Source: Iocasia fonsfrigidae (lineage in GTDB: Bacteria; Bacillota; Halanaerobiia; Halanaerobiales; DTU029). Taken from it: 64,000 nucleotides of DNA. Below the pieces are notes generated by a model. The model saw nothing but the letters and a program-made list of their open reading frames with translations, was not told the origin of the DNA and searched no databases. The stretch is taken from positions 3,390,137-3,454,136 of the forward strand of contig NZ_CP046640.1 in NCBI RefSeq assembly GCF_017751145.1, read 5' to 3'. Made by a program: the position numbers and the translations under genes. Below are positions 10,517-29,750 of the stretch, one piece after another (the first letter of the stretch is position 1; each line of letters begins with the position of its first letter).

Positions 10517-12136
10517 CTAGAAAGTATAGATCTCCTTATAATATCTTTTTAACATCCTTTTTGCAGAAAATCGTTCATAGGTACTCTCAATACTGGCTTT
10601 CATCATCTCTTCCCATCGCTCTCTATTATGATAATAGGTAGGTACTACTTTATTCAAAAGGACTTCATATAAGGCCTTAAGGTCATGTTCATCCTGTTTA
10701 TCCTGATCACTATCTTGATAGCCGTCCCCAAACTGCCAGCCGTTAACCCCATCTTCACAGGCTTCAGGCCACCAACCATCAAGTATACTCATATTCAAAA
10801 CCCCATTCATCGCTGCTTTCATCCCGGAAGTACCGCTAGCTTCCTTTGGCCTTCTGGGGTTATTTAACCAGAGGTCAATCCCTCTTGTTAACTTTTTCCC
10901 TATTTCCATATTATAGTCTTCCAGAAATACAACACTATGTTGATATTTCTTACTCATCTTAACCAGACTGCTTATAATTCTTTTCCCTGTATCATCTAAG
11001 GGATGGGCCTTCCCAGAAAAAACAAGCTGTATTTTACCTTCTTTTAAATAAGGACCAATAATAGATGCTTTGCTAAATATTAAATCACTCCTTTTATAAG
11101 GGGCCGCCCTTCTGGCGAAACCTATCAGAAGTTTATCACTGCTGAGGTTGACACCTGTTTTTTGTTTTATATATTTAATCAGCTCTTTTTTTAATTCTTG
11201 GTGTACAGGCCAGAGTAATTTACCCTGATCATATGCTTCCCTGATCCTCTGATCTACCCAGGTTTTATGGTGAACACCATTAGTAATAGCTATAATGGGG
11301 GGTTTATTATCTACATGCTCCCACATTTTACGTGCTGTTACAGCATGCAGCTCTGCTACAGCATTGGCCATATGTGACAGTCTCAGTCCGGCAACTGTCA
11401 TATTAAAAGGGGCACCACCAATCTTAACCATCTGCTCCAGGGTCAAACCCCTGAAGCCCCCCATATATCTAATACTATCCAGACGGTGTTTCTCATTTCC
11501 TTCCTTAACAGGGGTATGGGTTGTAAATACTATTTCCTTCCTTACTTCGGCCAGTGCTTCATCAAAAGTATGACCCTGCTTTATTTTCTCCCTTATTAAT
11601 TCTATACCTGCAAAAACTGCATGCCCTTCATTAAAATGATATATATCTATATTTAAACCTAATTTTCTGATTAGCTTTATACCACCTACCCCCAGGATAA
11701 GTTCCTGGGCAATCCTCTCCTCTACAAACCACCCATATAATTGACCTGTTATCCATTTATTAGCGTTCTTTTTATGATTTGTATCCAGCAAATACAGAGG
11801 AACATTATCATAGCGTTGCAATTTCCAGACTTTACAGATAATATCTTCATCTCTTATTCTAACTGTTACAGTAATACCAGTATCATCCAACAACTTATAC
11901 ATATAATCATTATTATGATAGGAATCATATGGTCGACCATCTTCAGCAATAAGCTGTTTTGTATAACCCTGCCTCCACAAAATACCAATACCTATCATTG
12001 GTTTATTTAACTCTTTAGCAGCCTTAAGGATATCACCAGCCAGTATACCTAAACCACCGGCGTAAATCCTAATTGCTTTATCCAGACCATATTCCATACA
12101 AAAATAAGCAACCTTTGGTTCTTTATTACTACTCAT
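10517..12136 (-). CDS. glgP: Alpha-glucan phosphorylase, GT35, short form
   Basis: PLP-dependent phosphorylase that releases glucose 1-phosphate from alpha-1,4-glucans or maltodextrins. The protein is about 539 residues, shorter than the roughly 800-residue E. coli MalP/GlgP and in the range of the TIGR02094-type short glucan phosphorylases. Visible motifs are the N-terminal YFCMEYGLDKAIRIYAGGLG, the glucan-site HFNEGHAVF, and the PLP-lysine motif EASGTSGMKAAMNG near the C terminus. I take the ATG at 12136 because AGGAGGC lies 8 bases upstream; a longer frame up to 12211 has no such site. Its location next to GH13 genes indicates intracellular maltodextrin or glycogen breakdown. Confidence 0.92.
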   Translation of the reverse strand: MSSNKEPKVAYFCMEYGLDKAIRIYAGGLGILAGDILKAAKELNKPMIGIGILWRQGYTKQLIAEDGRPYDSYHNNDYMYKLLDDTGITVTVRIRDEDIICKVWKLQRYDNVPLYLLDTNHKKNANKWITGQLYGWFVEERIAQELILGVGGIKLIRKLGLNIDIYHFNEGHAVFAGIELIREKIKQGHTFDEALAEVRKEIVFTTHTPVKEGNEKHRLDSIRYMGGFRGLTLEQMVKIGGAPFNMTVAGLRLSHMANAVAELHAVTARKMWEHVDNKPPIIAITNGVHHKTWVDQRIREAYDQGKLLWPVHQELKKELIKYIKQKTGVNLSSDKLLIGFARRAAPYKRSDLIFSKASIIGPYLKEGKIQLVFSGKAHPLDDTGKRIISSLVKMSKKYQHSVVFLEDYNMEIGKKLTRGIDLWLNNPRRPKEASGTSGMKAAMNGVLNMSILDGWWPEACEDGVNGWQFGDGYQDSDQDKQDEHDLKALYEVLLNKVVPTYYHNRERWEEMMKASIESTYERFSAKRMLKRYYKEIYTF

Positions 12137-12215
12137 AAAAAATTGCCTCCTTTTTCTATAATGATATATTCCGTGATAACCCAACTGAAGATCAAACCCA
12201 TACCATACCACTAAA

Positions 12216-13276: not shown

Positions 13277-15040
13277 TTAGCTCAAAATCATTCCTTTAAA
13301 TTTTGAAATTTCTATTATATATTTTTTGTCATCACCCAATTGAAAAGAACTATCATCTAGATAATTAGATATTTCTTTTTTATATCCAAATAAATTTCCT
13401 GCTAAAGTGTATTTTTGGGATAATGGACTATTGTTAATAATCACTACAATACTTTCATCCTCATAGCTGCGCAAAAAACCATATGTATTTTTTATTTCAT
13501 CAATTACTATTGGCTGATAATCACCACGTCGAAGTGGTATTAATTCATGTCTTAAGCTTATCAGCTTTTGGTAATATTTATATAAATCTTTATCCTGTTT
13601 TTCTATATCCCAGACCATACAACGACGGCAATCAGGATCATCTTCACCTTCTATACCCACCTCATCACCGTAATATATCATCGGTGCCCCTGGATAAGTA
13701 AATTGAAATAATACTGCCAGTTTCATCAATTCTTTCTCTCCCGAAAAAAAATTAATTAATCTGCGGGTATCATGGCTGTCCAGGAGATTCAGCATACTAT
13801 AATTTACTCTGTCTTGATATAACATCCAGTTCCTGACAAGCCTATTACTGAACTCGCCAGGGCCTATTTTTTTATAGGCAAAAAAATCAAGTACCGACAT
13901 TTCCAGTGGATAATTCATAATTGCATCAAATTGGTCACCCTGCAACCATTTTTCCGAATTATGCCAGATTTCCCCTACAATATAGGCATTCGGTTTAATT
14001 TTTTTTACCCTTTCACGAAATTTACGCCAGAAATTATGATCAACCTCATCAGCCACATCAAGCCTCCACCCATCTATATCTACTTCATTAAGCCAATATT
14101 CAGCTGCACCAAGGAGATAATCCTGAACCTCAGGATTTGAAGTATTAAGTTTCGGCATATCTATTACATCATTAGCAAAGGTATCATAATTGACCGGAGG
14201 AGTGGTTTTAACAGGATAATTATCAATAAAAAACCAATCACTATACTTAGAACTGGCACCATTTTCCCGAACATCTTTAAAAGCAAAAAAATTAAACCCA
14301 CTGTGGTTAAAAACAGCATCAAGAATAACCCGAATTCCCCTTCTATGGACCTCAACAACTAATTTTTTCAGTATTTCTTTGTTACCAAAGCTAGGGTCAA
14401 CCTTATAAAAGTCATCAATATTGTACTTGTGATTACTAGTAGAACTGAAAATTGGATTAAGATAGAGAGCATTAACTCCCAGGTTTTCTAAATAATCTAG
14501 CTTTTTTATAATCCCTTCTAAGTCCCCGCCAAAAAAAGAATCACTTTCAGGTTTAGCTCCCCAGGGTCTTATCCTATCTGGATCATTATCTGTATTACCA
14601 TTATTAAATCTTTCAGGGAATACCTGGTAAAAAACCGCATCCTGTACCCATTCAGGTATTGAAAAAATATCGCCTTCATTTATAACTGGATATTGGAAAT
14701 ATTCACCATAGCCAAAAGATTTTCCAGGTTTAATATTACTAAAGCCTTTTTCTGTAAACCAGATCCCTTCAGAACCATCACTTAAATAAAATAAATAGCG
14801 AAAACGGTTATCATCCATTGTTATACTAGTCTCAAAATAATCATAAAGACCATCGCTGGCAACTAACTCCATCTTTTTTACATTATATGGAGCTTTGCCA
14901 TCATACCGACTACCAAATATTACTTTTACCTCTTGTAAATCATTTTTAGCTGCTTTTAGTCTAATCTTTAAAGTATTCCTATCAAGAGGGTAAACATAAT
15001 TCCAACCTGGCTTATGTAAAATTGCTGCTTTATTCATCAT
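13277..15040 (-). CDS. Cytoplasmic GH13 neopullulanase/cyclomaltodextrinase-type amylase
   Basis: A 587-residue GH13 enzyme with no signal peptide. An N-terminal CBM34-like domain (about 1-120) precedes the (beta/alpha)8 barrel. The catalytic triad is nucleophile D328 in DGWRLDVADE, acid/base E357 in IVGEIWHNS, and stabiliser D424 in LLDSHDT; MPKLN in the conserved region is the neopullulanase/cyclomaltodextrinase signature. Such enzymes cut imported maltodextrins, cyclodextrins or pullulan fragments. It ends with a short all-beta C domain that recurs as a remnant at 12216-12326. The upstream neighbour is a decayed small gene, then the secreted glucan-binding protein. Confidence 0.93.
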   Translation of the reverse strand: MMNKAAILHKPGWNYVYPLDRNTLKIRLKAAKNDLQEVKVIFGSRYDGKAPYNVKKMELVASDGLYDYFETSITMDDNRFRYLFYLSDGSEGIWFTEKGFSNIKPGKSFGYGEYFQYPVINEGDIFSIPEWVQDAVFYQVFPERFNNGNTDNDPDRIRPWGAKPESDSFFGGDLEGIIKKLDYLENLGVNALYLNPIFSSTSNHKYNIDDFYKVDPSFGNKEILKKLVVEVHRRGIRVILDAVFNHSGFNFFAFKDVRENGASSKYSDWFFIDNYPVKTTPPVNYDTFANDVIDMPKLNTSNPEVQDYLLGAAEYWLNEVDIDGWRLDVADEVDHNFWRKFRERVKKIKPNAYIVGEIWHNSEKWLQGDQFDAIMNYPLEMSVLDFFAYKKIGPGEFSNRLVRNWMLYQDRVNYSMLNLLDSHDTRRLINFFSGEKELMKLAVLFQFTYPGAPMIYYGDEVGIEGEDDPDCRRCMVWDIEKQDKDLYKYYQKLISLRHELIPLRRGDYQPIVIDEIKNTYGFLRSYEDESIVVIINNSPLSQKYTLAGNLFGYKKEISNYLDDSSFQLGDDKKYIIEISKFKGMILS

Positions 15041-15073
15041 TAAATTATCACTCCCTAATTATTTTTGTTTATA

Positions 15074-15394
15074 CTATTGTCTTAAAGTTGTCCTAATTCT
15101 TATTTCCAAACTGACTCCACCATCAACAGTAAACTCTTCTGTTTTCAGATAGAATACAGTTTTATCACCCTCCACCTAATCATTATTATCTTCCTTAATA
15201 GATATATTTCCTGAAAAATCCAATGACCCCTCCTGACTATCACACTTACCATTATTGCTATCACCACTCCCATTAATCCATAAAACACAATAGAATTTCT
15301 CATTGAATTAATCACAGCTACTATGTAATTTAAATTTACCCATGAACTTATCCCAGAATGATTTATATTTTTCAAAAAAAAACTTAATTTTCAC
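15074..15394 (-). pseudogene. Decayed small gene with two in-frame stops
   Basis: From a GTG at 15394 preceded by AGGAGGATGTAGG, one frame runs 107 codons to a stop at 15074. It is interrupted by TAA after VKIKFFFEKYKSFWDK...HSSCD and by TAG after ISIKEDNND. The segments between the stops have ordinary coding composition (GKCDSQEGSLDFSGN, VEGDKTVFYLKTEEFTVDGG). I recognise no family. It may once have been a small beta-rich protein, perhaps a glucan-binding module, linked to the GH13 operon. A 76-codon frame elsewhere in the same interval is less likely because it lacks a ribosome binding site. Confidence 0.5.
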
Positions 15395-15807
15395 CCTACA
15401 TCCTCCTTATTTAATTATCTCAGTAATTCACACCTCTCCTTCTATTAAGTAAAATCAATCTAACTTTAAAAACAGAATTGTTGTGAAATCGTTTAAACAA
15501 GATTGAATACAGTATAATTTTTTTATATTTTGCAAAGAAAGATATAGAAACCACCTAAATTCTTTAACATAAAATGCAAGGCTGGCTCAATATTAATATT
15601 CAGAATATTTAAAGGGGAAACAAATTAACATCAAGCTCAATAATTAGTACCAAACCAACCTTGCATAAAAATAATTCTTTTTTTTATAACAATTTAATCA
15701 AATTAAAAATCTTGTGTGGTGTCCTGTAAACTACCAACTATAAAGTTAGCGCCATAAAAGAGAATTATGTCTATTGAAAATTAAAGCTAATAAACTCTAA
15801 ACTATCT
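15395..15807 (-). other. Intergenic region with a long imperfect inverted repeat and an operator-like site
   Basis: No gene is supported. A 12-base arm ATGCAAGGCTGG (15574-15585) is complementary, with one G-T, to CCAACCTTGCAT (15655-15666), and pairing can extend inward imperfectly; this is probably the 3' structure of the 906-residue protein transcript. A TATACT (about 15511-15516, minus strand) followed by AAACGATTTC (about 15486-15496) looks like a promoter with a LacI-type operator for the downstream GH13 genes. Confidence 0.45.
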
Positions 15808-18528
15808 TTAGAATACTGTTTCAAGTTCGGCCTTATAATAGTCTTCTCCTTCATCTTCATCTTGTTTATTATATGAAAGTGAAAAAGTACTCCTTTTATT
15901 AATCTCCTTAGTCAATTTAATTAAAATTGCATCATCTTCATATTCAGAGATTTCACCATGATTAAAATCATATTTAATACATAAATCAGCTCGTATACTG
16001 TAAGGAAATTTATAATATGTTTCTAGAGTTAAAATAGAATACCAATCTATAAAACGTTGTTTGTCAGCTACATAGTATTGTTCATCTTTAGTAATATCAG
16101 ATGGAGTATAATCTATTACATTATCTTCAATTTGTTGAAATTCCAGACCTGTAGTAAGTCCACCCCACATTGGTAATTTAGGATTTCTAAATTCTGTTTC
16201 TAAATACACTTTCTGTTTCCAATCATTATCATTATCATCCTGATCTTCATAGTCTGCATTCTCTACTAGACCATCAGCTCCATTATCATCAACTGTATAA
16301 TTAAGCAAAATATATGGGATATAATCCTCACTATCTCCCAAATGGTGTAATTTTGTTTCCAAACCATATTTTATTGCTTTATCATCTTCATATCCGCTTA
16401 CAGGGTCTTTAACATAACGGACATTAGGTTTGACATAAGCAATTTTATCTGTATGTAGATCCAAATCACTCTCTAAATAGTATTCTTCAACTTCTGAATC
16501 CAATCTGTTGTGTATATTTCCCCTCAAATATTTTAGGTATGGAATGTTACTAGTCTGTGTCTCAAAACAAGCCTCCTTCTTTTCCCCTTCAAAATCATCT
16601 GTATCTTTTGGATCAACTTCAATACTACCTGTAATATAATCTAGACCCTTAACTGGTTTATTCCATTCTAAACCTGTGGCCACTTTCCTACTCAAGGCAT
16701 CCCCTTCTTCTATGTCTTCACCATCATCTACAACTTTATCATCTGAAGCAACTTTGTATTCTAATTCTCCATTAAGTACTAAATTATTTAAAAGATTATA
16801 TTTTCCTTTGGCATATGCAGTCCGGTAACCAACATCTGCATCTTCCATAACATCATCATCTGCTACTGGCAGATAAGCATTTTGAGACATGGTCCTGGCC
16901 CCAACCGTAAAATCACCTTTGTATTTAGTCAAACTAAAATCTCCTGATTTAATACGGGCCTTCATACTGGCTTTTTTATCAACAATTTTATAATTAGCTT
17001 CTAGTAAAGCTGAATCACCTCTGTCATAAATAAAATCCCCTGCTGTCGCATAAACACAGGCAGTATTCACTTTAATATTCTCGCCGTTTGTTTCATAACT
17101 AGCTGTAATTTCATGATAATCATTCCAGTTATCAGTATCCCACATTATTTTAAACTCCTGGCCTTCTTTCAAATTAGTAAACTCACCTTCCCAGATACCA
17201 GGTGCAACTTTCTCCAGAGCAAAAGACTTATCAGATGGTGTCCAGGCTGGGTCCTGCATGCTCCCTACTAGATGCATCTCTTTTACTTCACCAATTACCG
17301 GTATGGGTTTATTTTCAGCACCTTCAGCAGGTTCTAATCGACTTATATTTACTCTAATCTTCCAAGCTGAACCTTCTTCCATCACCTTAGTAGTTAAAGC
17401 AGTGTATTGAGCCTTTAATGTCAAATTGTCAATTGGTTTAGCCTCAATAAAAACCGCCTCTGTGTCTGTTAGTTTTCCATCAACATCTTGTGTATACTGC
17501 AAATGAGAACCTATTTTCACTTCTTTCCCATTTAAATTAAAATCTTTACCAATATTTGCATATCCATGGTAAAGCCCATAACTTTCCTCATCCTGTAAAT
17601 ACTCTGTAGTATTATCAAGATATTCTGTCATGGCAAAATTAAAATCTACCGGCAGACTTTCCTTGCTTTCCATTTTAAATCTACGGGTATAGTTACCGTT
17701 TTTTAATAAATCATTGGGATTAGTTGTCCCATTTTCTCTACCCTCACTATCAGTAATCGCATCAACTAATCCTAATGGGTCCATTGAATTAGTAAGGTCT
17801 TTGGTATTGATGCCAATTGTATAATCAACAGGATCAGTTAGTAATGTTACTTTAGTATTCCATAACTCAATTGTATCAGGTGTAAAGATCTCCATCTCAT
17901 CTATTTTTGTTATATCATCTGCATCCCATTCTATATTTACCTGACCACTATATTTTACTCGATCAACTTTTTCAGCATTATCTCCTTCACCAAGTTTATC
18001 CTGTATTGTTCCTTTTATATTTAATTCAAAGTCATTATCTATTTTTATAGGGTCATGTTCGTCATCAGTATTATTATATTCAACTTTGTTAACTACCTTA
18101 CCAGTTAGGCTAAACTCCCCTTTCATTTTACCAGAACTTATTCTCACTACAGAGTTTTGTCCCCCCTGCCCATCATCAACAAACGTATCTGCCTCATTAT
18201 CCTTCATCCAGTTCTTATCACTATCAACAAATTTATAGGGATATGTACCCTTTTTTAAAATTTTAGTAATTGTCCAAGCTCCATCTACTATTGTCATCTG
18301 CCAATCAGGGTGAGAACCATCCCAATTATTGGCTGTGCCCTCTATTACTTTATCTTCAGGAAAATCACCAGCTAGATACATCTCGCTTACATCCAATTTA
18401 GCTTGATAAATAAACGTTACTTTGTAATTCCCATCATCCAATTCCTCTACTATAGTTTTGGCATAAACAGAACCACTCACCATAATTAAAGTTAATAATA
18501 GGAAAACACAAATTTTCTTTTTCATCAT
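15808..18528 (-). CDS. Large secreted protein: two glucan-binding E-set domains in an outer-membrane barrel-like body
   Basis: A 906-residue protein with a clear signal peptide (1-23, cleavage after VYA). Residues about 34-131 form a CBM48/AMPK-type glycogen-binding E-set: MYLAGDFP, WQMTIVDGAWTI, GTYPYKFVDSDKNW, DDGQGGQNSVV. A second E-set lies at about 414-503: EMHLVGSMQDPAW, FKIMWDTDNWNDYHEI. The rest is a long series of amphipathic beta strands with acidic loops, ending in ELETVF. A C-terminal phenylalanine is the usual signal for outer-membrane barrel assembly. It lies among amylase and maltodextrin import genes and behind a LacI-type operator. I infer a surface starch-binding porin that combines the jobs Bacteroidetes split between SusC and SusD/E. 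Barrel topology is inference from composition. Confidence 0.75.
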   Translation of the reverse strand: MMKKKICVFLLLTLIMVSGSVYAKTIVEELDDGNYKVTFIYQAKLDVSEMYLAGDFPEDKVIEGTANNWDGSHPDWQMTIVDGAWTITKILKKGTYPYKFVDSDKNWMKDNEADTFVDDGQGGQNSVVRISSGKMKGEFSLTGKVVNKVEYNNTDDEHDPIKIDNDFELNIKGTIQDKLGEGDNAEKVDRVKYSGQVNIEWDADDITKIDEMEIFTPDTIELWNTKVTLLTDPVDYTIGINTKDLTNSMDPLGLVDAITDSEGRENGTTNPNDLLKNGNYTRRFKMESKESLPVDFNFAMTEYLDNTTEYLQDEESYGLYHGYANIGKDFNLNGKEVKIGSHLQYTQDVDGKLTDTEAVFIEAKPIDNLTLKAQYTALTTKVMEEGSAWKIRVNISRLEPAEGAENKPIPVIGEVKEMHLVGSMQDPAWTPSDKSFALEKVAPGIWEGEFTNLKEGQEFKIMWDTDNWNDYHEITASYETNGENIKVNTACVYATAGDFIYDRGDSALLEANYKIVDKKASMKARIKSGDFSLTKYKGDFTVGARTMSQNAYLPVADDDVMEDADVGYRTAYAKGKYNLLNNLVLNGELEYKVASDDKVVDDGEDIEEGDALSRKVATGLEWNKPVKGLDYITGSIEVDPKDTDDFEGEKKEACFETQTSNIPYLKYLRGNIHNRLDSEVEEYYLESDLDLHTDKIAYVKPNVRYVKDPVSGYEDDKAIKYGLETKLHHLGDSEDYIPYILLNYTVDDNGADGLVENADYEDQDDNDNDWKQKVYLETEFRNPKLPMWGGLTTGLEFQQIEDNVIDYTPSDITKDEQYYVADKQRFIDWYSILTLETYYKFPYSIRADLCIKYDFNHGEISEYEDDAILIKLTKEINKRSTFSLSYNKQDEDEGEDYYKAELETVF

Positions 18529-18588
18529 TATACCTCCTCGTATACATTTTAAACATCATTTTTAAACCCAAAACCACACTACTTTACT

Positions 18589-18727: not shown

Positions 18728-19536
18728 TTAATTATGAATTATAACAGCTGATATTGGTGGAACAGATATACTGTTATTCTCTATCTTCACACTGGTGTTA
18801 ACCAATGAAGTAGTACCAGCTGTTTTATCATCAACAACCACTTTCCAGTTAGAGTCTATTCCATTAATTTTTAGTGTTTTAGTTGTACGGTTAGAGTTGT
18901 AGATAACAATTACTTCATCCCATTTTTCTGTACCATCCAGTTTTCTTAGGCTATAGACTACTAAATTTTTCTCCTGGACAGGTATAAATTCAATGCCCTG
19001 TTTAATCTCAGCCATCCTTTCCATCCTGAAAATCTTATGCTCTCTTCTGAGTTTTATCAGTCCCTTAAAGTATTCATAGATATCCTGATATTTTTTTTAT
19101 TTTCCCAGACAATTTGGTTGGTTAAATCACCAGAATCATAACTATTATGATCTATTCCGTATTCTATATTGTCAGGATCGGGTTTGCTCCTCAACATTTC
19201 CGAACCACCATGAATAAAAGCCTTTCCCTGAGATGTCATCACAATAGCTGTTGCCAGCTTATGCATTCCCTTTCGTTCTTCAATAGTTGCCTCAGAGGCA
19301 GATAGATTAATCTTATCCCAGAGAGTACGTCCATCATGACAGGTAACATAATTTATAACCTCTTCCGGGTCATCAGCAAATCTATCATAAGGTGCAGTTA
19401 AAAGAGGTAATTTTGACTGATAATCAACCATACTAGCTATTACACCAGTCCGAATCTTATCCTCATTACCAGCTACGTCCTGTACAAATCCACCTTCTTC
19501 AGCTGGAGCAATAGCAGAAGGTTGAATATAAGACAT
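18728..19536 (-). pseudogene. Truncated, frameshifted type I pullulanase (GH13) remnant
   Basis: The frame starting at 19536 encodes pullulanase-type sequence (EGGFVQDVAGNEDKI, then INYVTCHDGRTLWDKI with the stabiliser aspartate, then GGSEMLRSKPDPDN and DHNSYDSGDLTNQIVW). It then runs into a stop after a run of eight A at about 19092-19099. Another frame continues seamlessly with KKYQDIYEYFKGLIKLRREHKIFR and the C-terminal beta domain to 18728. So one indel in a poly-A tract breaks the gene. The N-terminal half, including the nucleophile and acid/base, is absent: a stop codon lies just before 19536, and the secreted amylase ends at 19573. It is a dead 3' fragment unless poly-A slippage rescues part of it; even then it would lack catalytic residues. 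Confidence 0.85.
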
Positions 19537-25250: not shown

Positions 25251-25264
25251 CTTAAGCGTTTAAG
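25251..25264. promoter_or_regulatory. LacI-type operator (CTTAAGCGTTTAAG) before the MFS gene
   Basis: A near-perfect CG-centred palindrome overlapping the stop codon of the regulator gene. A second copy with the same arms (CTTATACGTTTAAG, 26247-26260) lies just before the regulator start. Two matching sites flanking a LacI-family gene point to autoregulation plus control of the MFS gene. The stretch 25009-25250 has no gene with a start codon. Confidence 0.65.
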
Positions 25265-26213
25265 CTTTTAAAGAAAATTCCTTCTCTTTAAAAATTGTAT
25301 ACTTATCTACTGCAAATTTTCTATTTAAATAGTTCATCATTATAGTCACGGCTGTTTTAGCTTTCTTTTCAACGTCAAAAACAACCTTTTTGGCTCTTTT
25401 TGGAATTATATATGAGCTACCGCAGGTACTTATTACCGCAATGTTTGGTGGATCAATGAAATTTGCTACTATTGTCCCTAGAAACTCATTTAATACAATT
25501 CCTTTTTTGCCTTTATGACTCTTTAAAAAATCTTCGAATTCATAGATAGATTCTACCATATGTATATCTGCTTCATCTCCACCAAAACAATATTGAATTT
25601 TCTGGTTCATTTCTCTATTATTGAACTTATCCATAACCAAAAATAATTCATTATTTCCCAGCAAGTCTTTTCCTTTTTGAATTGCACTTTCAAAATCAGG
25701 TACAATTTTATGGAAAATCAAATCATCAATATAGCTATCTACAATTATAATGGGTACATTAAATTTATTTGAAAGCTCATAAAACAAATTTTTTCTTACA
25801 TCAACAATGAATACTCCCTCTAAATCCCGTTGAAAAATTATATCCAGCTTGGGATTTTCTATATCAATATTAGACAATAGTATATGGTAGCCTTCAAAAG
25901 CAAACATCCTCTCAAGCCAATTAATAAATTCACTGTAATAACATTTTTTCCAGGGGAAATCCACAGAATAATCATTAACAATGAAAACACCAATTAATCC
26001 TGATTTTCCACTAACCAGTGAACGAGCAACAAGGTCAGGGATGTAGTTCATCTCCCGTGCAATCGTCATAATTTTATTTTTTGTACTAGAAGAAATTGTT
26101 TCATTAGTATTATTGTTTATCACATAAGATACAGTTGCAACAGAGACACCTGCTTCTCTTGCAATATCTCTCATTGTAACTTTTTTTAAGTTTTTATTTT
26201 TTGGGGAAGACAT
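25260..26213 (-). CDS. LacI-family transcriptional regulator (near MFS gene)
   Basis: About 317 residues. The N-terminal HTH (about 12-60) has KVTMRDIAREAGVSVATVSYVIN and the hinge helix LVARSLVSGKSG; the C-terminal half is a periplasmic-binding-protein-like effector domain (GLIGVFIVNDYSVD, GVFIVDV, PNIAVISTCG). The effector domain is divergent from typical sugar-binding LacI proteins, and several consensus positions are missing. The start at 26213 is chosen because AAAAGGAGATG lies about 10 bases upstream; the longer frame to 26246 has none. Palindromes CTTATACGTTTAAG (26247) and CTTAAGCGTTTAAG (25251) are its probable sites. Confidence 0.9.
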   Translation of the reverse strand: MSSPKNKNLKKVTMRDIAREAGVSVATVSYVINNNTNETISSSTKNKIMTIAREMNYIPDLVARSLVSGKSGLIGVFIVNDYSVDFPWKKCYYSEFINWLERMFAFEGYHILLSNIDIENPKLDIIFQRDLEGVFIVDVRKNLFYELSNKFNVPIIIVDSYIDDLIFHKIVPDFESAIQKGKDLLGNNELFLVMDKFNNREMNQKIQYCFGGDEADIHMVESIYEFEDFLKSHKGKKGIVLNEFLGTIVANFIDPPNIAVISTCGSSYIIPKRAKKVVFDVEKKAKTAVTIMMNYLNRKFAVDKYTIFKEKEFSLKA

Positions 26214-26246
26214 AAATTTCAGCATCTCCTTTTTATAATATAACAA

Positions 26247-26313: not shown

Positions 26314-27156
26314 CTATCCTTTGTTTGCCCCTTTAGTGAGACCACCAATCATTAGCTTCTGTAAAGAAAGATAAATTATTGTAATAGGTAAGGCAGCCAG
26401 TAATGCTCCAGCTGCAAACTGGGTAAAATGCTGTCCATATTGTCCACTAATAAAATCATATAAACCAACAGCCATAGTCCAATTTTTTTGTGAAGTTAAA
26501 ATCAATCTAGCAAAAAGAAAGTCACCAAATGGAGCTATAAAATTTAAAATTGCAATTACAGAAATTATTGGTAAAGAGAGAGGAAAAATAATTCTCCAAA
26601 AAATTTTCCAACGACTGGCTCCATCAATTATAGCAGCTTCTTCCAGGGAGCGGGGAATAGTATCAAGATAACCCTTCATAAGCCAGCTATTATAAGGAAT
26701 AGCACCACCTGAATAAATCAGAACTAGCCCCCAATGAGTATCAAGCAAGCCTATTAAATTCAATAAAACATATAGTGCAACCATATTCATTATCCCCGGA
26801 AACATCTGTAAAACAAGTAATCCCATTAATCCCTGTTTTTTCCCTATAAAATCCAGTCTGGAAAAAGAATAAGCAGTAAAAGAGACCAACAATATAGTCA
26901 GCAGTGAAGTAAAGGTGCCAACTTTGATAGTATTCCAGTACCAGATGAAAAAGTCTGTTTCCTGGAATAATTCGGTATAGTGACTCCATGTCATATTTTG
27001 GTGAAAAAAAGAACTACTGAAAAGACTATCACCAGGATTTAAAGATGAACTAAATATCCAAACTACTGGGAAAAAAACAACCAGAACCATAAAAATAATA
27101 AATATATAAGTAAAAACTAATTTAAGATTACTTTGAAACCTCTGAGATCTAATCAT
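26314..27156 (-). CDS. malG: Maltodextrin-type ABC permease, MalG family
   Basis: A 280-residue inner-membrane permease with six helices and the EAA loop EEAAIIDGASRWKIFWRIIFPLSLP, which docks to the ATPase. It forms the channel with the MalF-type subunit encoded just upstream (4-base ATGA overlap), served by the binding protein at 28545-29750. No MalK-type ATPase gene lies in the window, so a shared ATPase (MsmX-like) must be encoded elsewhere. Substrate maltose/maltodextrin is inferred from family resemblance and the surrounding amylase genes. Confidence 0.92.
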   Translation of the reverse strand: MIRSQRFQSNLKLVFTYIFIIFMVLVVFFPVVWIFSSSLNPGDSLFSSSFFHQNMTWSHYTELFQETDFFIWYWNTIKVGTFTSLLTILLVSFTAYSFSRLDFIGKKQGLMGLLVLQMFPGIMNMVALYVLLNLIGLLDTHWGLVLIYSGGAIPYNSWLMKGYLDTIPRSLEEAAIIDGASRWKIFWRIIFPLSLPIISVIAILNFIAPFGDFLFARLILTSQKNWTMAVGLYDFISGQYGQHFTQFAAGALLAALPITIIYLSLQKLMIGGLTKGANKG

Positions 27157-28466
27157 TGTAACATCTCCTCCTCCTGAAAAGACCTGGTTCTTCTGAAATT
27201 GTAGATACTAAATCCAGCAATGATAATAAAGATTATTATAGAGATTGCAGAAGCATAATTATATTTTAATTTCTGAAAAGTTAATTTAAAGATCCAGGAT
27301 ATTAAAATATCGGTACCACCAGCACCTCCCTGCCAGCCAAACACAGCCGGCCCTCCATCATTTAACAGGTAAATAATATTAAAATTATTGAAATTATAGG
27401 CAAAGGTCATAATTAACAGAGGAGCCATTGAGTATAAAAGCAGAGGCAGGGTAATATTTCTAAACTTCTGCCAACCACTGGCCCCATCAACTATTGCTGC
27501 TTCATAGAGATCACCGGGAATGCTCTGCAAAATACCTGTAATTAAAATCATAGCATAGGGAAAACCTAACCAGAGATTAACCAGAATTAGCGCCACTCTG
27601 GCCCAAAATACTTCATAAAGCCAGGGAATATTATTTATATTAAATAATTGAACCAGAAGTTTATTAATTATCCCAAAATTAGTATTAAGCATCCCCCGCC
27701 AGATAAGAATACTGACAAATGCTGGTATTGCCCAAGGTAAAATCAGTAGTGTCCGAATTATCTTCCGAAATTTTATCCGGGGGTTATTCAATAAAATAGC
27801 CAAAAATCCACCTAGCCCAAAAGTACTTACTGTAGAAAGTATTGACCAGATTACCGTCCAGCCAAATATATTTCTAAAGGTTTTTGACCAGGAACCTAGA
27901 GTCAAAACCTTATAAAAATTCTTGATACCTACCCAGTCAAGAATATGTTTCGGGGGTGAGTGATAAAGATCATAATTTGTAAAAGCAATTAACATAGAAA
28001 AAATCATAGGAAGAATTGTTATTGCTGTAATAACAATTAATCCAGGTGAAAGAACTATATAAGGATAACCACCTTCGATAATTCTTTTTAGTGAAATATA
28101 AAAGCTAGCTGGCTTTTGACCATTATCCAGTAATTTCCCATTTTTATAAGCATCCCTGATATTAAATAAATATATAGCAAGAATAACTAACAACAGTAAC
28201 AGAGCAATAATACCGTAAACCATAAAAAAAAGGGAATGGTCTTTCATAGGAGTTTCTCCCAGTGTCACTAGCCCCTGAAAACTTCTGATAAAATAAGGAA
28301 TGCTATTGATAATAACAAAGGCATTAAATATAATAAATAAAAACCCTTTAATAAACTGACCATTAGCTATCTGCCCTGCTCCCATAAAAACTGTTGATAA
28401 TATTGCAGCAATACAACGTCTATTCTCAATCTTTTTAATCTTTTTCTGTATTTGAGGTTCCAACAT
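27153..28466 (-). CDS. malF: Maltodextrin-type ABC permease, MalF family
   Basis: About 437 residues. Two extra N-terminal hydrophobic regions (AGQIANGQFIKGFLFIIFNAF and a long helix near 70-100) precede the six-helix permease core, as in MalF-like proteins of Firmicutes. The EAA motif is EAAIVDGASGWQKFRNITLPL. I take the ATG at 28466 (MLEPQ...) because AAAGGAGAG lies 4-6 bases upstream; the in-frame ATG at 28481 is within that site. It overlaps malG by 4 bases and follows the binding-protein gene. Confidence 0.92.
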   Translation of the reverse strand: MLEPQIQKKIKKIENRRCIAAILSTVFMGAGQIANGQFIKGFLFIIFNAFVIINSIPYFIRSFQGLVTLGETPMKDHSLFFMVYGIIALLLLLVILAIYLFNIRDAYKNGKLLDNGQKPASFYISLKRIIEGGYPYIVLSPGLIVITAITILPMIFSMLIAFTNYDLYHSPPKHILDWVGIKNFYKVLTLGSWSKTFRNIFGWTVIWSILSTVSTFGLGGFLAILLNNPRIKFRKIIRTLLILPWAIPAFVSILIWRGMLNTNFGIINKLLVQLFNINNIPWLYEVFWARVALILVNLWLGFPYAMILITGILQSIPGDLYEAAIVDGASGWQKFRNITLPLLLYSMAPLLIMTFAYNFNNFNIIYLLNDGGPAVFGWQGGAGGTDILISWIFKLTFQKLKYNYASAISIIIFIIIAGFSIYNFRRTRSFQEEEMLQ

Positions 28467-28544
28467 ATTCTCTCCTTTCAAATCTGGCGGTTGACCCTAT
28501 CTACTATCAGAGAGAATCAACCGCAAAAATAATCTAGCTTATTG

Positions 28545-29750
28545 CTATTGTTTCATCTGCTCAATATTTTCTTTAATCTGTTCTACCATTATCGGCAATA
28601 CCTCTTCAGGACTAACCTGTCCTTTAAAAATAAAAGGAAGAGTATTTTCTACCGGATCCCAGACCTGCATCATCTCCGGGATATTAGGCATCGGAATTCC
28701 GCGTCTAGCCTGAATTGCAAATGCCCTCAAATCTTCATTCTCCTGAAATTCCGGCAAAGAAATAACATCATCCCTAGTTGGAATAATAGCAGCTTCTTGA
28801 TAATGTTTAAAGCTATTTTCTTTATTTGTCAACCACTTGATAAACTTAAGAGCCTCTTCTTTCTGTTCACTAAAAGCACTGATATAGTATGCTTTAACTC
28901 CAATCAAGGTATGGGGATATTCTCCGTTATCAAGTTTGGGAAAAGGAGCAATACCATAGTTTATATCTGCCTCTTTATAATTTCCAAAAGCCCAGGGACC
29001 ACTAATCTGAGCTGCTAATTTCCCTTCCTGAAAGAGCCCATCAAAAATATCATCGGTTATACCTTCAGGCATAAGCCCTGAAGTTCTAAAAGTCTTAATT
29101 AATTTTACTGCTTTAATAGCTCCTTCAGTAGCCAAACCAATATCATTTACATCCAGACCATTTTCAGTTTCTTTAAATACATAACCACCATAAGCTGAAA
29201 TAAAACCAAAGATATGATAAAGTTTCCATATTTGGCCCATAAAACCATACTGCTGCTCATTAGGTTTGTTTAATTCTAAAACTTTTTCCAAAAACTCATC
29301 AAAAGTAGCGGGTATTTCAGGAATCAGATCTTTATTATAAATAATTGCTACCGTTTCCATAGCATAAGGCAAACCATATAATTTACCTTTATAACGCACA
29401 GCACGTACTGCTGATTCTGTATACCCATCAAAATTTAACTTGTCTTTCGGCAATGGCCATAATAAGCCTTGTTCAACTGTTTTCCCTATCGCATCATTTG
29501 GCCAGGCTACAATATCTGCACCCTTACCAGCAGGTCCGTCTAATGCCAGTTTATCACTTTGTGATAATTGATCAATCGCTACTACTTCAATTTCTACTCC
29601 AGTTTCCTCAGTATACTTCTCACCTACCAACTTAACAAATTCCTCTTCAGTTCCAGAACTCTCCCAAACTACTAATTTTGTTGCCTCAACATTAAACGAT
29701 AAGCCTAATACCAAAACCATCAAAACTAACAACATAACAACTCTCTTCAT
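28545..29750 (-). CDS. malE: Maltose/maltodextrin-binding protein
   Basis: A 401-residue extracytoplasmic solute-binding protein. A signal peptide (about 1-23, VEA-TK) has no lipobox cysteine, which fits a soluble periplasmic protein in a diderm. The fold is that of MalE: KLVVWESSGTEEEFVKL, AIIYNKDLIPEIPATFDEF, INYGIAPFPKLDNG, KEALKFIKWLTNKEN, FLEKVLE. First gene of the malE-malF-malG operon, with a promoter and two LacI-type operator words upstream. Confidence 0.93.
   Translation of the reverse strand: MKRVVMLLVLMVLVLGLSFNVEATKLVVWESSGTEEEFVKLVGEKYTEETGVEIEVVAIDQLSQSDKLALDGPAGKGADIVAWPNDAIGKTVEQGLLWPLPKDKLNFDGYTESAVRAVRYKGKLYGLPYAMETVAIIYNKDLIPEIPATFDEFLEKVLELNKPNEQQYGFMGQIWKLYHIFGFISAYGGYVFKETENGLDVNDIGLATEGAIKAVKLIKTFRTSGLMPEGITDDIFDGLFQEGKLAAQISGPWAFGNYKEADINYGIAPFPKLDNGEYPHTLIGVKAYYISAFSEQKEEALKFIKWLTNKENSFKHYQEAAIIPTRDDVISLPEFQENEDLRAFAIQARRGIPMPNIPEMMQVWDPVENTLPFIFKGQVSPEEVLPIMVEQIKENIEQMKQ

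Follow-up and report, generated by a model that had tools for sequence, protein, structure and literature searches.

A predicted outer-membrane beta-barrel with built-in starch-binding-type modules in the starch cluster of a diderm Firmicute

Introduction

How polysaccharides pass the outer membrane of diderm Firmicutes is hardly known, and the papers that we retrieved deal mainly with OmpM. A starch locus of the halophile Iocasia fonsfrigidae poses the question in concrete form. In the window, the 64,000-nucleotide stretch of DNA analysed here, a minus-strand open reading frame of 906 codons encodes an E-set/beta-barrel protein, and a first-pass annotation had asked whether this single chain does the work of both SusC and SusD/E. 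Our best explanation is an outer-membrane beta-barrel whose own modules, of starch-binding type, bind alpha-glucans and whose pore passes maltodextrins, a reading to which we give a probability of roughly 0.7. The barrel family is a concrete, testable candidate for starch uptake in diderm Firmicutes.

Results

Gene and domain architecture

The features of the gene and its product are as follows.

15808..18528 (stop codon included), minus strand: gene for the E-set/beta-barrel protein, 906 residues; from the open reading frame and its full-length conservation in relatives
18533..18538, minus strand: Shine-Dalgarno-like AGGAGG; read from the sequence
18460..18528, minus strand: signal peptide, residues 1-23; direct reading of the sequence
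18136..18459, minus strand: E-set 1, residues 24-131, AMPK/CBM48/X25-type, predicted periplasmic; from Pfam and profile comparison, topology from model loop lengths
18331-18360, minus strand: ten-residue insert PEDKVIEGTA in E-set 1, residues 57-66; from comparison with 11 other copies
17395..18123, minus strand: first part of the predicted barrel, 11 strands, residues 136-378; from the AlphaFold model and amphipathicity
17062..17370, minus strand: E-set 2, residues 387-489, between strands 11 and 12, predicted extracellular; from homologue profiles, topology from the models
15811..17019, minus strand: second part of the predicted barrel, 19 strands, residues 504-906, ending in Phe; from the AlphaFold model and amphipathicity

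The AGGAGG lies 4 bases ahead of the first ATG and 7 ahead of the second. Since the frame is conserved over its full length across several genera, the open reading frame is not a chance one; an NCBIfam search of the protein returned no family. The N-terminus is Lys-rich and then hydrophobic, with VYA/K at 23/24, and reads by eye as a signal peptide; the body is strand-rich and acidic (D + E about 20%), and the terminal Phe recurs in every other complete homologue, five of them long and three shorter. All three features had been remarked on in the first-pass annotation, and sequence, models and homologues bear them out. The genome itself is one contig of 3.93 Mb. Judged by its relatives, it would be that of a Halanaerobiales-type diderm Firmicute, and the Omp85 that we found in it is consistent with an outer membrane in this organism.

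Two modules of the glycogen-binding E-set type

By sequence comparison, module 1 (residues 24-131; initially placed at about 34-131) is an AMPK/CBM48-type glycogen-binding E-set. In Pfam the window copy matches X25_BaPul_like (E 8e-6) and AMPK1_CBM (6e-5), both just under the cut-offs, and E-set 1 of three homologues exceeds the AMPK1_CBM cut-off, down to 3e-18. Profile comparison matches the module to the pullulanase X25 domain (5ot1, 2.4e-17) and the glycogen-binding domain of AMPK beta (1z0n, 3.5e-12). W69, K99, W103 and N125 align with the Trp, Lys, Trp and Asn glucan contacts of AMPK; three of these (W69, K99, N125) are invariant in 12 E-set 1 sequences, and the W103 position holds Trp or Tyr. 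The window copy carries the insert PEDKVIEGTA beside the conserved NNW, missing from all 11 copies with which it was compared, and its place next to the conserved Trp counsels caution over glucan binding by this particular E-set 1.

Module 2 (residues 387-489) is, on the same kind of comparison, a divergent relative of the module 1 family, recognised mainly through homologues. Homologous copies match the Pfam families CBM48, AMPK1_CBM, CBM20 and CBM53, and the profile of the module weakly matches AMPK beta and pullulanase X25; Pfam gave no match over thresholds for the window's own copy. Thus the second E-set originally placed at about 414-503 stands, with shifted boundaries and on the strength of its homologues, and the expected similarity to CBM families extends to module 1 and to the homologues of module 2, the window copy of module 2 staying below thresholds. 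Nine homologous copies all keep W429, W446, K460 and W468. The solved relatives of these modules, AMPK beta, CBM48 and pullulanase X25, are attached to enzymes or kinase subunits, and not, as here, to a membrane barrel.

Prediction of a large membrane barrel

AlphaFold2, run on the window protein with a six-sequence alignment, predicts about 30 long strands, 11 before and 19 after E-set 2 (pLDDT 57, pTM 0.38). A second prediction, made for a relative's barrel with the same six species in the alignment, again gave 11 + 19 strands (pLDDT 67, pTM 0.49); the two runs use one shared alignment and are therefore not independent. The predicted strands have a period-2 amphipathicity of 1.46, compared with 0.76+-0.10 after shuffling within strands, a value that none of 2000 shuffles reached, and some of them are without strong hydrophobicity on one face. 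The PDB folds listed as matches, which are Foldseek's top matches only, are all membrane beta-barrels (TonB receptors, SusC, the ushers FimD and PapC, LptD, porins and VDAC), with Z up to 15.4 but an rmsd of about 11 and low TM-scores. A signal peptide, many amphipathic strands, an even strand number and a C-terminal aromatic residue, all traits of outer-membrane barrels, occur together in the protein. The fold class that emerges from the models is clearly that of a membrane beta-barrel of the outer-membrane kind. Because model confidence is low, the closure of the barrel, which the first-pass annotation had asked for as support, and its exact strand number are provisional predictions, whereas the membrane-barrel fold matches and the approximate count of 30 strands agree with the barrel of 14 or more strands asked for there. 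If that count is right, this would be among the largest barrels known for nutrient uptake.

The combination of barrel and binding domains in one chain, also proposed earlier, is supported: E-set 1 is N-terminal, and E-set 2 is inserted between strands 11 and 12. In outer-membrane barrels, periplasmic turns are short and outer loops longer. With the E-set 2 loop left out, the gaps in the window model average 14.7 residues after odd strands and 6.0 after even ones (one-sided p about 0.003), and those in the relative's model 13.1 and 5.6 (one-sided p about 0.003). This alternation would place both termini, and with them module 1, in the periplasm; module 2, which follows strand 11, would then lie on an extracellular surface loop. 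Only E-set 2 is thus expected to capture starch at the surface, so that the idea of binding modules serving surface capture fits the second module and not the first.

The starch locus of the window

The surroundings of the barrel gene, all on the minus strand, are the following.

10517..12211: alpha-glucan phosphorylase; TIGR02094 over cut-off
13277..15040: GH13 enzyme of cyclomaltodextrinase/maltodextrin glucosidase type, apparently without signal peptide; domain search
15041..15807: slot of the relatives' starch-binding-type lipoprotein, here without detectable homologue; tblastn
18731..19527: decayed remnant, lying in two frames, of the 3' end of a secreted pullulanase gene; similar to residues 628-893 of the pullulanase of locus L039
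19573..21498: secreted alpha-amylase (GH13), 641 residues; domain search
25260..26246: LacI-family regulator; domain search
26314..29750: maltodextrin-type ABC importer genes, MalG-, MalF- and MalE-like; equivalog matches

Downstream of the barrel gene lie the GH13 cyclomaltodextrinase-type enzyme and the phosphorylase, and upstream the secreted amylase, the regulator and the MalGFE-type genes, in agreement with the cluster of secreted amylase and maltodextrin importers that had been recognised at the outset. The best equivalogs of the importer genes are MalG, MalF and, for the binding protein, GanS followed by MalE, all below the curated cut-offs.

The stretch 18731-19527, which separates the amylase gene from the barrel gene, aligns in two frames, at 84% and 60% identity, with the final third of the pullulanase of a relative. 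Sequence comparison identifies it as a pullulanase pseudogene, in the slot where three related clusters carry an intact pullulanase ahead of the barrel gene; a second pullulanase-type gene lies elsewhere in the genome. On the other side of the barrel gene, tblastn gave no match to a relic of the relatives' lipoprotein in 15041-15807, nor was that lipoprotein found in the window genome, one of the searches for it running without a positive control. With the lipoprotein undetected and the pullulanase decayed, the starch system of this genome may be shrinking, and the E-sets of the barrel may be the only starch-binding parts of the system left at the outer membrane.

Relatives and their starch clusters

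An alignment search of genome contigs retrieved the relatives; a single-sequence search gave none. Full-length homologues of 29-37% identity occur in Halothermothrix orenii and Halonatronum saccharophilum, as well as in four MAGs, of which one is truncated. The viral contigs searched held no relatives, and the sole match among the plasmids searched was from Treponema. Around the homologues the order pullulanase, barrel gene, lipoprotein, secreted amylase recurs, with MalEFG-type genes in two cases; the order is incomplete in H. orenii and Halonatronum, where no pullulanase immediately precedes the barrel gene, and one MAG has its upstream gene masked. The lipoprotein downstream of the Halonatronum barrel gene (L038, 12810-14279) contains three near-identical CBM26 modules (3.9e-31), and those of the other clusters consist of tandem repeats hardly recognised by Pfam. 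The presence of a separate lipoprotein in the homologous clusters suggests that barrel plus lipoprotein is the usual design. The proposal that one protein unites SusC and SusD/E therefore does not hold for the relatives, which keep the lipoprotein apart; the window genome, where it is undetected, comes close.

Other families of the phylum have a shorter homologous family (638-722 residues), which aligns with the long one over 517 columns (E 2.5e-29); where the long proteins carry E-set 2, it has either a single E-set or two in tandem. In two of its three members the gene adjoins one for a GH57 enzyme with a glucodextranase-C domain; on the third member's contig none was seen.

In the published record, a PopA-superfamily protein of H. 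orenii (Hore_23180, PMC12228718) was considered and set aside: judged by gene order, its locus number misfits the position of the barrel gene.

The same E-set on other barrels

Four genomes of the family to which Halonatronum belongs encode LamB (E down to 5e-91) with this E-set fused at its N-terminus, and a fifth, more distant genome shows the same fusion by eye. The LamB barrel has 18 strands. LamB is an outer-membrane maltodextrin channel beside starch enzymes, as proposed for our family, but a different barrel without an inserted E-set: hhalign of our family against the E-set-LamB proteins aligns only the N-terminal E-set, and LamB (PF02264) gave no match in the barrel protein and was not found in the window genome. 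At least three E-set-LamB genes share upstream genes with the Halonatronum barrel gene. At this type of locus the barrel differs and the E-set is constant, and none of the genomes searched holds both barrels.

The Treponema match lies on plasmid pTS2 of Treponema saccharophilum (L061, 6004-11554), in a starch cluster. There, a gene for a 708-residue protein, made up of an E-set and a long body with Phe as its last residue, is followed in a row by a small lipoprotein-like gene and by genes for an amylase and a maltose-binding protein. The layout resembles that of our family, whereas kinship is detectable in the E-set only; since nothing else aligns, we rejected the Treponema body as a homologue of the barrel, and it is probably a barrel in its own right. 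Beside starch genes, glucan-binding modules have thus been joined to no fewer than two outer-membrane barrels that are unrelated to each other, those of this family and of LamB, and Treponema probably provides a third such joining. This pattern suggests that, outside the Bacteroidetes, the same solution to starch uptake recurs.

A further fusion was seen in a sister genome (G026; L068, 1501-3207, minus strand), which encodes an OmpM-like sugar porin, namely a LamB maltoporin whose N-terminal domain is SLH. In OmpM the N-terminal SLH domain faces the cell wall (PMC5007114), and by analogy that of the SLH-LamB protein should do so as well. Such porins of diderm Firmicutes resemble the barrel protein, as predicted here, in having a soluble domain at the N-terminus that faces the periplasm, but theirs is a cell-wall-binding SLH domain in place of a glucan-binding-type E-set.

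Discussion

Alternative readings

The alternative that survives best, though we consider it unlikely, is that the protein is a surface starch adhesin or scaffold, in which the barrel only anchors the E-sets and offers starch to the amylase, the maltodextrins entering through another porin. The predicted surface position of E-set 2 beside secreted hydrolases would suit this role. Against it, a periplasmic E-set 1 would be of no use in adhesion, the other porin is not evident, as far as the search for LamB in the window genome goes, and in sister genomes this E-set is fused to LamB, which is a genuine sugar channel.

Somewhat less likely still, an E-set might sit inside the barrel as a gate instead of acting as a surface grabber. 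Usher barrels carry an Ig-like plug, FimD and PapC are among the top fold matches, and E-set 2 does interrupt the barrel sequence. Homologues, however, have a single E-set or a tandem pair at this insertion point, which fits an exposed loop at least equally well, and the conservation of glucan-contact-type residues in E-set 2 argues against a mere plug.

That the protein is a soluble or fibrous all-beta protein of the cell surface, with no membrane barrel, we regard as very improbable. The low model confidence, the acidic sequence and the strands without a strongly hydrophobic face speak for it, but the period-2 amphipathicity, the loop-length parity, the C-terminal Phe, the E-set-LamB fusions and the uniformly membrane-barrel character of the listed fold matches all speak against it. 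Neither outcome named beforehand as contrary to the barrel proposal, such a fold or a lack of similarity to glucan-binding domains, was obtained in the predictions and profile searches.

A TonB-dependent, SusC-like transporter with fused binding modules, suggested by the siderophore receptors and SusC proteins among the fold matches, can hardly be maintained, given that Pfam finds no TonB plug (PF07715) in the window protein or its homologues, that the N-terminus is an E-set, and that no SusD_RagB was found in the window genome by a search positive in a Bacteroides control, though plug proteins occur elsewhere in that genome. The equivalence with SusC drawn in the first-pass annotation is accordingly a weak one. 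The plug-domain proteins, about 615 residues long, are three in number and lie outside the window (G000:C1:1311657, 2707309 and 2718608); no TonB receptors were reported in the H. orenii genome paper.

A model for starch uptake

With no plug detected, SusC is a weak analogue and a LamB-type porin a nearer one. The best reading is that the barrel protein acts in the manner of a porin into which binding modules of the Sus type have been built, being neither SusC, for want of a plug, nor LamB, for want of a match. As in the Bacteroides Sus system (SusC, D, E, F and G), an outer-membrane barrel is combined with starch-binding modules and a secreted amylase, to which the homologous clusters add a starch-binding-type lipoprotein; in contrast to Sus, the barrel lacks the plug, its partner SusD was not found, the binding modules share one polypeptide with the barrel, and an ABC importer follows. 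This points to a design of outer-membrane starch uptake different from the Bacteroides machine, as had been surmised.

The computation supports the family of the modules, the fold class of the barrel, the conservation of the cluster and the strand parity; glucan binding, a pore function, and the closure, exact strand number and sidedness of the barrel are what we infer. We suggest that E-set 2, on its extracellular loop, would hold amylose or a large maltodextrin at the mouth of the pore, where the secreted amylase could cut the glucan so held. The fragments would pass through the large barrel, and the periplasmic E-set 1 might bind them as they arrive and so favour inward flow, after which the MalEFG-like importer would take them up and the cytoplasmic GH13 enzyme and the phosphorylase would degrade them.

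More tentatively, and at odds that we put short of even, the family may represent a separate class of polysaccharide channel: an unusually large barrel (about 30 strands) that has a starch-binding domain on either side of the membrane and would combine starch capture outside with maltodextrin trapping inside, with no need of TonB energy. In the course of evolution it would have been swapped with LamB at a shared locus, the E-set being retained. Among the open-access papers searched, no title or abstract was found that describes a porin with a starch-binding module, which is weak evidence of absence; mentions of porin together with CBM48 in metasecretome and Fibrobacter papers proved to be unrelated co-occurrences.

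An E-set like module 2 (39-45% identity) also occurs outside barrels. In six genomes of the same order (loci L016, L017, L020, L021, L025 and L034), small proteins of about 150-200 residues, with no obvious signal peptide, join it to a ComEA-type helix-hairpin-helix; they are possibly glycogen-linked DNA-binding or sensing proteins.
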